Origin: Sphingomonas sp.
GTDB taxonomy: Bacteria > Pseudomonadota > Alphaproteobacteria > Sphingomonadales > Sphingomonadaceae
Assembly: GCF_013812825.1 (NCBI RefSeq)
Contig: NZ_JACCSU010000029.1
Span: forward strand, 1-39,327
Direction: 5' to 3'
DNA: 39,327 bases
Numbering within the stretch: position 1 is the first letter of the stretch; each line of letters begins with the position of its first letter. Below, piece after piece: positions 35,461 to 39,327 of the stretch. The translations under genes and the position numbers were made by a program. The notes under the pieces were generated by a model that worked only from the letters and a program-made list of their open reading frames with translations, did no database searches and was not told the DNA's origin.

Positions 35461-35820
35461 ATGGCCATCGCCCGATTCATCAAGCCGTGGACGCTCAAGC
35501 GCGACAAGAAGCGGCGGCGCCTGGCCGAGCTGCGCCAGCGCGACGGCGACAATTGCCGGCGCTGCCGGCGGCCGATGCGCTTCGACCTGCCGCCCGGCCA
35601 TGACCAGGCGCCGACCCTCGAGCCGGTCGGCCCCAGGTCGAAAGACGCCGGCGGCGGGCTCGACACTTTGTGCCTGTGCCACGTCCGCTGCAATGGAGCG
35701 ACGCTCGACAACACGGCCCAAGTGCAGGAACGGCTGCGCCGCCGGGCCGAAGAGGTCGCCGAAGAGAGCGTCCCCGAAGAGGCCGCCGCGCCCAAGAGGC
35801 GGGTCGCCGGCCGGCGCTAA
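35461..35820 (+). CDS. HNH-endonuclease-like protein with an altered active site
   Basis: A 119-residue basic protein with the zinc-binding frame of HNH nucleases: DGDNCRRCRRPM (C-x2-C) and LCLCHVRCN (C-x-C-H-x2-C). The central motif normally reads LExHxxPRS; here it is TLEPVGPRSKDAGG, lacking the first His. The fold is therefore probably kept while nuclease activity is doubtful. It sits 55 bases after the previous gene and 36 before a small membrane protein, all on the plus strand. No phage neighbours are seen. Confidence 0.7.
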   Translation: MAIARFIKPWTLKRDKKRRRLAELRQRDGDNCRRCRRPMRFDLPPGHDQAPTLEPVGPRSKDAGGGLDTLCLCHVRCNGATLDNTAQVQERLRRRAEEVAEESVPEEAAAPKRRVAGRR

Positions 35821-35856: not shown

Positions 35857-36126
35857 ATGGCAAGTCCGCTGCAAACCGCGAAGCCGACCGTCAATCTGGC
35901 GTCGAACCTGGCGTCGGCGGGGCCGCGCGTGTCGCGAATCCGCCGCGATCCGCCGCCGCCGGTGAAGGAGAAGGTGGTCGTCGATTTCGAAGAGCGTGAC
36001 CAGTGGGTGGTGATCGTCGGAGTGCTCGCCTTCGCGCTGGCGATCTTCGTCGTCATCCTCGCGTTCGGCAGCTACTCGAGCTGGTCGCCGCGGGAGTACA
36101 AGGTCGAGATGACGATCGCGGAGTAA
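35857..36126 (+). CDS. Small single-pass membrane protein
   Basis: An 89-residue protein. The first 45 residues are basic and Pro-rich (RRDPPPPVKEK), followed by one membrane helix (about 51-70, VVIVGVLAFALAIFVVILAF) and a short external tail (SYSSWSPREYKVEMTIAE). GAGG lies about five bases before the ATG. Function is unknown. It is the last gene before the low-GC segment. Confidence 0.7.
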   Translation: MASPLQTAKPTVNLASNLASAGPRVSRIRRDPPPPVKEKVVVDFEERDQWVVIVGVLAFALAIFVVILAFGSYSSWSPREYKVEMTIAE

Positions 36127-36595
36127 TTGGCGCGGCGGGGCGTCAGTGCGCCATTGGCAATCGCTTAAGTTCGCTATTGTCCCGTAGAACACGCCCATGT
36201 TTGTGACTTTAGCGGCCGGTCGAAGCTTTCGGGGCGATCGTGATCCACGACGAGAAAGAGCCTCAGCCGGCACGGCCTCCGGCAGCCGCTGCGCCGCTTC
36301 CGTGCTCACGACTGCCCCCGGCAGCCGCTGCGCCGGAAGTTCACTAAGTTCACTCCGCGACCGCGCGAGGAGCATCGGCCGAGGTGGCCGACTATGCACA
36401 TGGATGATCGCCTCGGCGATCTGCTGTTTCGATGGCTTGCCCATGCTCGTTGATTCCTTCTGGTTCTTCTGCGATGCGCAGCATGAACCAAATGGGATGC
36501 TGTAGGACAGTTCTTTTTGCGGCGCGCTCGGCGCGTAGGCGAGCTTGGAGTGAATGAAGACTATCGCTGGATACCGAAGCGGTAGAGTTTCCCGA
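36127..36595. other. Gene-poor stretch with short direct repeats between core genome and low-GC gene
   Basis: No convincing gene is found here. It contains two identical 18-base copies of CCGGCAGCCGCTGCGCCG (36279-36296 and 36318-36335, 39 bases apart) and a perfect tandem pair of AAGTTCACT (36337-36345 and 36346-36354). A minus-strand reading frame from ATG 36444, with AAGGA upstream, begins MGKPSKQQIAEAIIHVHS and encodes the repeats as a 13-residue period (AQRLPGAV / AQRLPEAV). It then runs into the antisense of the membrane-protein gene. It may be a remnant of a gene or noise. Confidence 0.4.
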
Positions 36596-38713
36596 TTACA
36601 TCGTTCTGACGAATTGTTGATCCACAAAATCAAGTGTCACGCGCTGAAGCTTAGGTTCAACAGCTCGTCGATTGGCCTCGACCCACAACATCGCTTCGGC
36701 GGTTTCACGCGTGACCACTCCGTAGCCGGTGTAGTCTTGAATCTTCCCAGTCAGATGGGCCGCGGTCGTAAGAAGCGCGAGCAGAAATAACAACGCTGGC
36801 GCGGGGGACGGATAGGCAATTGTCAGTGCCAACAGAACCAAATCTATCATTATGGCACCGGCCAATACGAAGTGACCTGATCGGCGCCTTCTCTTCACTA
36901 TCTCGCCGTTTGTGAAGGTGAGCAGCGCGTCAATCGCAATATCATCCTCATTCGTAAGCGAGGATAACTCTTCTTCCTTCTGGGAAACGCTCTCCTGAGC
37001 CTGTGAGACCTGGCTTTCGAGTACTGATGCCTGTAGCGCCGCCTCCCTCGCGAGCCTAGCCCGCTCAGCCTCGGCTTCCCTTCTCACCGCATCGAGGTTC
37101 GATTGAAATTCGGCAGCCTTCTCTGCGATGAGGCTTTCCCTCATGCTTTTCAGCACGTCGTCAAACATGGCCTCGTCCACTACCGATGCCGTATTCAACG
37201 TCTTTTGCATCAGGACCTGCGTGCTTCGATCAACCGTCAGCAGCAAGTCCAATTGTTCCGCCGTGTCAGGGCCACGGCGCTGCGCAATGTGTCGCGCTTT
37301 CTGGACCACGTCGGGTCGGAGCTGCAAAACTCGTTCGCAAGATGCCAGGAGCAGATGTAGTGGGATCGATTTTCGCTCCGAATCTTTCAATCCTGCTCGC
37401 AGCCAAATGGCGGTGGCCAATTGTCTTTGATGGACTACTGGCCCGATCGAATAGCGATTTATCTTGGCCTGATCGATTGCAACGCGTCGAGCGGCTCCGG
37501 TTAGGATAGCATTTCGGGTGACCAGCAGATGGCCACTCTCGAACAGGTCCGTCGTTTGCTTGCCTTGGCGCATTCGCATGATGTTGGTCACAACCAAGGC
37601 ATCGTGCGCTCGGGGTATGTCTTCGATGTGCCATTGAATTTGAGAGTACAAATCCCGATAGCAATCTCGATCGAAGTACTTGTGATCATTAGGAAATTGA
37701 TCGAGAGAGCGACTTACAACTTGAACACCTGCGCGCTCCAAGGCCACCACCGGTCGGGCTTGTACCTCTTGAACGTAATTTTCGAGAGTTTCGCGCTTCC
37801 TTATGGCGGTCGCTGTCGGCCCCGTTCGTTGCGGAGTGGGGCGGCGAAACAGCGCTCGAAGGTTGCGCTGTATCTCTGCAACTGAGTCATCAAAAATGCG
37901 AAGTGACCCGCCGAGAGATTTCACCCGATCAGTAATTAAGCGGATGTTCTGGTAGGCCTCTTTGCCCGAGATATTGAGCAGGTCCATAGCCACTGGCGCA
38001 TCGAGGTAGAGCGCCAAAGTCGTGCGTTTAACTGCTGTCGTCGGGCGCGCAAAGTCTTCCGCGGCTTCAGCAAGCAATCCGACCTGGACAACATGGGCGA
38101 GGATTTCAATCAAAGGGGAACCCAATGAGTGGAGATGCTTCGTGAAGCTGGCGCAGACAAACTGTTCATCGGTATTGAAGCGGTTGTTCGCGCCTTCCTT
38201 TTCAACCGCGTCCGCAGCCTCGCCTGCATCCACGGTGCGTCGAAGCTGCTCAACATCATAGACATCTAAGGACACTACCCAGCGAAGCAGCAAACTGAGG
38301 AGATCTTCCCTGGTGCGCTGCCCGAAGAATAATGGCGACTGCTTCTCCGTGTATTCGCAGAACTCGTTTTCGAGTCTCTTCAGGTCCTCGGTAAGGCCTG
38401 AGTGGAAGGCGCCATCTGGCAGGTAGCAAGTCACCTGATAAACGGCGTTCTGGTCATTTGATTCGAGAGGCTCGACCCAGCCTTGGTCAATGAAGTGAGG
38501 GATTAGGCCTTCTACGACATCGCTGGATAGGTTCCACGCGTAGGCGTCATTTGCGGTTTCTGCGAGTTCGGCTGGATTGAGAGTTCGACCGTTCATAAAT
38601 GCGAGGAGCGGATGAAAGAATGGGATCACCGCCCCTCGGATGTCCTCAGAACCGCTTCTAAGAGCTTCGATGACAGCGTAAGCTTTGAAGGTACGAGGAC
38701 GTAACGTCGTCAC
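36596..38713 (-). CDS. Putative PIN-like nuclease with coiled coil and C-terminal membrane anchor
   Basis: A 705-residue protein of no recognised named family. Residues 1-225 are helical and probably regulatory. Around 233-415 the pattern resembles a PIN-like nuclease core: LALYLDAPVAMDLL (Asp238), LRIFDDSVAEIQ (Asp275/276, Glu280), AHDALVVTNIM (Asp371) and HLLVTRNAILTGAA (395-408, where PIN proteins have a strand plus Asp; here Asn401). Residues 525-590 form a Glu/Ala/Arg coiled coil. Two membrane helices follow (about 614-633 and 637-653), then a short soluble end. The start is GTG at 38713, three bases after the nrdB stop, with GGAG inside the end of nrdB. GC content is clearly lower than in neighbouring genes, suggesting acquisition. 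A phage-defence role is inference only. Confidence 0.6.
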   Translation of the reverse strand: MTTLRPRTFKAYAVIEALRSGSEDIRGAVIPFFHPLLAFMNGRTLNPAELAETANDAYAWNLSSDVVEGLIPHFIDQGWVEPLESNDQNAVYQVTCYLPDGAFHSGLTEDLKRLENEFCEYTEKQSPLFFGQRTREDLLSLLLRWVVSLDVYDVEQLRRTVDAGEAADAVEKEGANNRFNTDEQFVCASFTKHLHSLGSPLIEILAHVVQVGLLAEAAEDFARPTTAVKRTTLALYLDAPVAMDLLNISGKEAYQNIRLITDRVKSLGGSLRIFDDSVAEIQRNLRALFRRPTPQRTGPTATAIRKRETLENYVQEVQARPVVALERAGVQVVSRSLDQFPNDHKYFDRDCYRDLYSQIQWHIEDIPRAHDALVVTNIMRMRQGKQTTDLFESGHLLVTRNAILTGAARRVAIDQAKINRYSIGPVVHQRQLATAIWLRAGLKDSERKSIPLHLLLASCERVLQLRPDVVQKARHIAQRRGPDTAEQLDLLLTVDRSTQVLMQKTLNTASVVDEAMFDDVLKSMRESLIAEKAAEFQSNLDAVRREAEAERARLAREAALQASVLESQVSQAQESVSQKEEELSSLTNEDDIAIDALLTFTNGEIVKRRRRSGHFVLAGAIMIDLVLLALTIAYPSPAPALLFLLALLTTAAHLTGKIQDYTGYGVVTRETAEAMLWVEANRRAVEPKLQRVTLDFVDQQFVRTM

Positions 38714-38716
38714 AGG

Positions 38717-39327
38717 CTACTCCGCCGCAACCCCAGCCCTGGCAAACATGTCCTCACCCTCGCCAGCCGCATCCGCCGGCGCGTCATTCGCCGCGTCCGC
38801 TTTCGCCTTCTGCCTCCGGTCGAAATTGTCCCAGACATCATTCCAGCTCCCCCGCGTCGCCGCCTTTGAATACTCCGTCGCCCTCGTTTCGAAGAAGTTG
38901 GCGTGCTCGACCCCGTTCAACAGCGGGGCGAGCCAGGGGAGCGGGTGCTCGTCGACCATGTAGATCGGCGCAAAGCCCAGTTGGCCGAGGCGCCAGTCGG
39001 CGATGTAGCGGATGTACTTCTTGATCTCCTTGGGAGTCATTCCGGGCACCGGCCCCTGCTCGAACGCCAGGTCGATGAACGCGTCCTCGAGCCGGACAGT
39101 CTTCTGGCAGACGTCCATGATCTCGTCCTTGACCGACCTGGTCAGGCAGTCGCGTTCCTTCACGAAGGTGTGGAACAGCTTGATGATGCCCTCGCAGTGG
39201 AGCGATTCGTCGCGCACCGACCAGCTGACGATCTGGCCCATGCCCTTCATCTTGTTGAAGCGCGGGAAGTTCATCAGCATCGCGAAGCTGGCGAACAATT
39301 GCAGCCCCTCGGTGAAGCCGCCGAACA
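38717..39327 (-). CDS. nrdB: Class Ia ribonucleotide reductase beta subunit (C-terminal part, cut by window edge)
   Basis: The radical-generating small subunit that, with NrdA, makes deoxyribonucleotides. The window holds the last 203 codons; the N-terminus lies beyond the right edge. Conserved blocks are FGGFTEGLQLFASFAMLMNF, the iron-ligand motif WSVRDESLHCEG (Glu and His of the di-iron site), and a typical C-terminal region ADWRLGQLGFAPIY with FFETRATEYSKA. The tail EGEDMFARAGVAAE has the acidic end that docks into NrdA. The stop TAG (38717-38719) overlaps the ribosome site used by the following PIN-like gene. Confidence 0.95.
   Translation of the reverse strand, partial: FGGFTEGLQLFASFAMLMNFPRFNKMKGMGQIVSWSVRDESLHCEGIIKLFHTFVKERDCLTRSVKDEIMDVCQKTVRLEDAFIDLAFEQGPVPGMTPKEIKKYIRYIADWRLGQLGFAPIYMVDEHPLPWLAPLLNGVEHANFFETRATEYSKAATRGSWNDVWDNFDRRQKAKADAANDAPADAAGEGEDMFARAGVAAE
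38720..38723 (-). promoter_or_regulatory. Shine-Dalgarno for the PIN-like gene inside the nrdB end
   Basis: On the minus strand, GGAG spans the last sense codon of nrdB (GAG) and stands six bases before the GTG of the PIN-like gene. This implies coupling of its translation to nrdB. No separate promoter was recognised between the two. Confidence 0.5.

Follow-up and report, generated by a model that had tools for sequence, protein, structure and literature searches.

The window analyzed here is an entire contig of 39,327 nt from a Sphingomonas sp. assembly of 2.45 Mb in 100 contigs, and close to its end it carries a large open reading frame (ORF) of low GC content. This ORF lies on the minus strand at positions 36596–38713 (stop codon included), starts with GTG and encodes a protein of 705 aa. 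ORF calling and translation reproduced the extent, length and strand reported in an earlier note on this DNA, and nine homologs have a nearly identical start position. The upstream border of the insert is the 3′ part of nrdB, the gene for the small chain of ribonucleotide reductase (38717–39327, minus strand; Pfam Ribonuc_red_sm, E 5.8e-33), which is cut by the contig end. Three nucleotides separate the nrdB stop codon from the start of the ORF, which is on the same strand. On its other side, a spacer of 469 bp (36127–36595, 61% GC) leads to a gene for an 89-aa membrane protein (35857–36126, plus strand), which forms the far border of the insert and has similar DNA behind nrdB in relatives. 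A further ORF of 119 aa (35461–35820, plus strand) looks by eye like a small HNH endonuclease and has a weak relative behind nrdB at locus L051.

With 54.2% GC, the gene differs clearly from positions 1–35856 of the window (67.9%), and no 1-kb bin of the window falls below 60% GC apart from the three that the gene spans. Its GC at third codon positions is 59% compared to 84% in 19 host-like ORFs of the window, which were selected partly for a high value at these positions. The earlier statement that low GC and codon use single out this gene in the window was thus borne out. Together with the absence of homologs from all 60 other genomes of the genus that were searched, the foreign composition supports the proposal that the gene was horizontally acquired.

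Conserved residues and hydrophobic segments

Conservation was analyzed in an alignment of 15 members, i.e., the window protein and 14 homologs, of which L015, L111 and L112 are incomplete. Invariant residues are found at 12 positions (D238, V241, G250, E280, A303, D371, R380, R382, N401, P425, W437 and C459), and D238, E280 and D371 are the only acidic residues among them; D389 is acidic in all but one of the 15 members. The codons of these three residues, each identical in 15/15 members, are found on the minus strand at 38000–38002 (D238), 37874–37876 (E280) and 37601–37603 (D371), and the codon of the equally invariant N401 at 37511–37513. A PIN-like acidic pattern consisting of D238, D275/D276, E280 and D371 had been proposed for this protein. 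Its first, third and fourth elements are invariant, whereas D275/D276 are not conserved: position 275 is acidic (Glu) in one of the other 14 members and position 276 in none.

Eleven of the 12 invariant positions fall within residues 226–445 (37379–38038, minus strand), which we refer to as the PIN-like region. The three acids occur there in the order D…E…D and in the local context usual for PIN proteins: a hydrophobic strand followed by D-(A/T/G)-x-V, a glutamate in a stretch that looks helical, then x-D-(A/S/T) and finally (T/S)-x-N, as judged by eye against six PIN proteins. Many PIN proteins carry a fourth polar or acidic residue near the position of N401. The homolog L022 matches the Pfam profile PIN_3 over the first part of the region, including the first two motifs, at a score below the cut-off (E 0.0011; 20.2 bits, cut-off 27), and no PIN profile exceeded its curated cut-off for the window protein or any of the 15 members. 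When the region was aligned with the six PIN proteins by hhalign, D238 and E280 were in register at an E-value of 0.17, which is not significant, and the segment 445–530 scored better (E 0.031). PDB sequence searches with the window protein and the profiles A1 and A7 matched no PIN chain, and the two profiles retrieved nothing at E <0.1. The PIN-like assignment of the earlier note is therefore carried by the invariant triad in PIN order and by the PIN_3 match of L022, but not by profile or PDB matches of the protein itself; in our judgment, a PIN-like fold is likely. The remark that no named family has this architecture also holds at curated cut-offs, since Pfam and NCBIfam gave no match above them, no family of PADLOC-DB 2.0.0 was matched at E 1, and PHROGs yielded nothing better than E 0.13.

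Two hydrophobic segments are located near the C terminus, at residues 615–633 (36815–36871, minus strand; hydropathy peak 2.54) and at about residues 638–658 (residues 640–658 at 36740–36796, minus strand; peak 1.66, near the threshold). At least one C-terminal segment above the hydropathy threshold recurs in 12 of the 15 members; the exceptions are L017 and L019, which stay below it, and L112, which ends early. These segments agree with the two C-terminal membrane helices proposed earlier and support a predicted membrane anchor. In the window protein, the first segment is preceded by KRRRR. Because basic residues mark the cytoplasmic side of membrane segments (positive-inside rule), the nuclease part would be expected to face the cytoplasm. 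Between the PIN-like region and the segments, weak coiled-coil-type database matches point to a probable coiled coil at about residues 529–600 (36914–37129, minus strand). Of the features described for this gene before, the ORF, its low GC, the three acids and the hydrophobic segments were thus recovered; D275/D276 were not, and the coiled coil, with these weak matches as its basis, was not confirmed.

A hotspot of low-GC genes behind nrdB

A match to nrdB was found in 54 other genomes of the genus, and for the 42 with the match on a longer contig the 12 kb behind nrdB were compared. Of 29 same-genus loci compared with the window, 25 lose DNA similarity to it at positions 38712–38721, a few bases from the nrdB stop codon, and the other four lose it inside nrdB, up to 75 bp earlier. 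The distance at which pairs of genomes regain similarity varies between about 0.1 kb and several kb, except that none was regained at L070. A near-empty site is seen in L084, in which DNA like the 89-aa membrane-protein gene follows 65 bp behind nrdB, compared to 2.6 kb in the window; such DNA lies farther behind nrdB in L056, L058, L061, L068 and L069 than in L084.

The DNA directly behind nrdB is poor in GC in most of these genomes. The first kb is below 58% GC in 30 of the 42 genomes (and not low in the other 12), compared to 2 of 294 1-kb bins located 4–11 kb away (Fisher p 8e-31), and the mean is 55.4% in the first kb versus 66.0% at 5–11 kb. In a second genus of the family (L113–L142; nrdB match in 59 of 61 genomes, 30 loci fetched), the first kb is below 58% GC in 9 of 29 usable loci. 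Some of the starts behind nrdB in this genus look by eye like the cargo of L058 and L063.

Mechanical ORF calling within 2.3 kb of nrdB revealed 56 ORFs with low GC and a length of 80 aa or more, distributed over 34 of the 42 genomes. Clustering of the 52 ORFs that reach 100 aa, which come from 33 genomes, gave 47 clusters, and 43 of these have a single member. Behind the conserved core gene nrdB there is thus a family-wide hotspot of small low-GC genes, which differ in nearly every species and in many cases have no annotation. One cargo family recurs in L074, L075 and L077, where it starts 5–19 nt behind nrdB; its proteins begin with FDKLDAYNLVANLVPGAALTY, are 63–77% identical and show a weak DUF1304 match in two of the three. 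A second related pair, L090:10645-12024 and L093:10638-12011, encodes proteins of about 460 aa with 64% identity on the strand opposite nrdB as the first genes of the hotspot; neither has a Pfam match, and the L090 protein has no PADLOC match.

A Pfam scan at E 0.01 of 40 cargo proteins from 31 genomes detected immune- or nuclease-type domains in 13 proteins from 13 genomes. These are reverse transcriptases (L065, L091), TIR (L060, L086), SIR2 (L069, and below the cut-off L095), GmrSD (L061), Swt1-like HEPN (L057), AbiJ (L085), Schlafen AlbA (L078) and HNH (L054, L058, L087) proteins; all of these domains are of immune or nuclease type. Further domains include DUF4145 (L063, L067), DUF3800 (L076), HATPase (L082), AAA (L055, below the cut-off), ParA-type (L089) and LprI-like (L079). 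As 27 of the 40 proteins have no immune-type domain at E 0.01, the cargo is not all defense.

Known defense genes among the cargo are also apparent from PADLOC. When 42 proteins were searched (the window protein, itself without a match, and the products of 41 cargo ORFs), 164 families were hit; among the 25 of these that were listed, the best match is Drt4 (4.3e-145). The control set consisted of the L090 protein and 39 host-like ORFs located 5 kb or more behind nrdB, and it hit 14 families (best match IetA, 1.6e-25). This contrast is inflated, since many models are matched by the two reverse transcriptases and some of the control ORFs are orthologs of each other. PD-T7-4 was matched by two members of the cargo scan; the L090 protein is not one of them, since it matches no PADLOC family.

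Several cargo genes are closely joined to nrdB. In 16 of 43 genomes (window included), an ORF of 100 aa or more on the same strand has its start −4 to +25 nt from the nrdB stop codon, and all 16 ORFs are below 58% GC. Of 116 host-like ORF stops used as a control, 64 are followed by such a tight ORF, and none of these is below 58% GC. The 3-nt gap in the window and the 15 other tight junctions suggest that these genes may be expressed from the nrdB message. The codons that precede the nrdB stop read GCGGCGGAG or similar, and GGAG is present in 31 of 43 genomes. GGAG as a ribosome-binding site that sets the position of the cargo was rejected, as tight starts are found in 13/31 genomes with it and 3/12 without it (Fisher p 0.48). 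A duplicated nrdB 3′ end that could serve as attachment site was not found: the best repeat of its last 24 nt within 6 kb is at control level in 42 of 43 genomes, L055 (19/24) being the lone exception. No integrase or transposase was detected by Pfam among the 40 cargo proteins within about 2.3 kb of nrdB, and within the ranges searched the site does not show the integrase gene and duplicated attachment site of an integrase-borne island.

Distribution and settings of the protein family

The family of the 705-aa protein is rare and patchy in its spread. Counting its own genome each time, homologs were found in 2 of 100 relatives and in 3 of 398 genomes of a phylum sample, and matches in 6 of 296 genomes of an order sample (one of them a fragment) and 5 of 385 genomes of a class sample (two of them short partial matches); further samples yielded 1 of 17 and 4 of 249 genomes, and all these samples overlap. 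The homolog set excludes L005 and L006, which are partial (E 3e-4; query residues 161–280 and 528–676), and L013, a fragment at a contig end. A scan for a single ten-residue pattern in one genome from each of 84,980 species retrieved nine loci, all with alphaproteobacterial titles, and in 9/9 the GC of the gene is below that of both flanks. Neither the 72,556 plasmid records nor the 50,697 phage records searched contained a homolog, and a search of viral contigs with one pattern found none either.

The sites of the homologs vary between genomes. The L016 homolog is located behind a tyrosine recombinase, and a phage portal gene lies near the L021 homolog. Recombinase- or transposase-like ORFs were recognized by eye around L018, which also has a HipA gene nearby, and around L022, which has a DUF4062 gene nearby. 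L011 (genome G1037, from the same taxonomic family) is identical in DNA to L022 of Sphingomonas horti MAH-20, so that the window most likely comes from the family of this species. The L109 homolog is followed by a low-GC ORF of 1369 aa (L109:11410-15516) with sub-threshold matches to AAA and to NACHT (the latter at E 0.014), which is possibly a second immune gene. The copy in L112 that ends early adjoins an ORF that looks transposase-like by eye, and in L015, L017 and L111 the gene stands alone between housekeeping-like genes, again by eye. L111 (7982–9953, genome G908) is a broken copy of the family with a TAG in its upstream part, behind a gene that resembles uvrA by eye. The neighborhood analysis called for in the earlier note therefore shows that the homologs are not confined to fixed housekeeping contexts, although several of them are alone among housekeeping-like genes.

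Possible function and known systems

We consider this gene to be probably an undescribed antiviral gene, because it is foreign-looking, encodes a probable membrane nuclease and is located at a spot with many antiviral-type genes. The location argues for defense, the motifs for a nuclease and the hydropathy for the membrane. The explanation that we favor, with moderate confidence, is a single-gene, horizontally acquired, membrane-anchored PIN-like antiphage effector carried in the nrdB hotspot. The earlier interpretation as a membrane-anchored PIN-like defense element is partly supported by these data: acquisition and the predicted membrane anchor stand and a PIN-like core is likely, while defense is deduced from context, namely the immune-type genes of the hotspot and the mobile settings of some homologs, and is not backed by a PADLOC family.

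In such an effector, the middle of the protein would form a PIN-like nuclease core with D238, E280 and D371, and a coiled coil would connect it with the C-terminal membrane helices, thereby placing the nuclease at the cytoplasmic face of the inner membrane. The N-terminal 220 residues may act as a sensing or regulatory part. Upon infection, nucleic acid would be cleaved at the membrane; the target could be incoming phage DNA or RNA or, in an abortive response, RNA of the cell itself. The gene may be expressed from the nrdB message.

A broader and rather doubtful extension is that the nrdB stop serves as a plug-in site throughout this family of Alphaproteobacteria. Immune genes would land directly behind nrdB one or a few at a time without an integrase of their own, be expressed from the nrdB message and hence together with DNA synthesis, and move between species through recombination in the flanking DNA. 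The protein of the window would then be one of these plug-ins, an undescribed membrane-anchored PIN-like nuclease, and the 27 of 40 cargo proteins that lack an immune-type domain would include unknown immune genes. If true, a membrane-anchored PIN-like effector would be added to bacterial immunity, and the position directly behind nrdB would be a simple address for searching this family of environmental bacteria for further antiphage genes. Moreover, the movement of single defense genes that lack their own integrase would become testable, as would their possible reliance on the expression of a replication gene.

Among the alternatives, an accessory PIN-like membrane nuclease without antiphage function, such as an RNase activated by stress or a fitness gene that spreads by recombination, is unlikely but the most probable. 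It is compatible with the cargo that carries no immune-type domain, including ParA-type (L089) and LprI-like (L079) proteins, and with the homologs found alone between housekeeping-like genes; the rare and patchy spread of the family speaks against it, as does the enrichment of the hotspot in immune-type genes. We give still less weight to the idea that the PIN-like region has a decayed site and serves for binding or sensing, so that the protein would act through its membrane part, e.g., by depolarizing the membrane. N401 near the place where many PIN proteins have a further acid and the lack of a PIN match for the window protein in Pfam and PDB searches would fit a decayed site, but catalysis is suggested by D238, E280 and D371 being the only invariant acids across 15 divergent members.

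A toxin of the VapC kind from a type II toxin-antitoxin pair is very improbable. The protein shares PIN-like motifs with these toxins, and a HipA-type gene lies near the L018 homolog; in contrast, the window protein has 705 aa and membrane segments whereas the six PIN proteins compared have 134–153 aa, and inspection revealed no small partner gene on either side of the gene, which is alone between nrdB and the 469-bp spacer. A housekeeping partner of NrdB in nucleotide metabolism, which the same-strand start 3 nt behind the nrdB stop might suggest, is largely refuted and has next to no probability, as relatives carry unrelated genes at the same place and tblastn found no nrdB in 14 homolog neighborhoods of 4.9–22 kb each.

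Among known proteins, the membrane-anchored PIN-like effector that we favor resembles PIN nucleases (PIN_3, PF13470; PIN, PF01850) in the order and local motifs of the three invariant acids, in the PIN_3 match of its homolog L022, and in the hhalign register of D238 and E280 (at the E-value given above). It differs from them in the 91 residues between E280 and D371, the lack of a match over the cut-off, the long N-terminal part, the probable coiled coil and the C-terminal membrane segments. That a membrane-bound nuclease alone can be a complete antiphage system is exemplified by SNIPE, in which phage DNA is cut as it is injected by a nuclease on the cytoplasmic side; this nuclease is of the GIY-YIG type and C-terminal, and SNIPE further has a DUF4041 domain and, close to its N terminus, a transmembrane domain (PMC13190303). 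The two proteins are alike in combining nuclease and membrane anchor in one polypeptide, and unlike in that the window protein has its anchor at the C terminus and a PIN-like nuclease; no Pfam match to GIY-YIG or DUF4041 was detected in it at E 1. Among the papers listed in searches of the open PMC library, no title or beginning of an abstract describes a membrane-anchored PIN antiphage protein or an nrdB hotspot.

For the site itself, core defense hotspots have been described in Pseudomonas aeruginosa, with cDHS1 ranging from 1 to 224 kb (PMC10250203), and in E. coli, where islands typically carry integrases or other mobile genes and 18 of 41 hotspots are in tRNA loci (PMC10121019). A term search of the main texts of these two papers found no mention of ribonucleotide reductase. 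The nrdB site differs from the hotspots so described in that its low-GC DNA mostly covers the first one to three kb, in that its 40 scanned cargo proteins include no integrase, and in its tight starts behind nrdB in 16 of 43 genomes. It shares with them a fixed place beside core genes that holds changing immune cargo, and on this basis the core-gene hotspots of P. aeruginosa and E. coli, as presented there, are the closest known kind of place.
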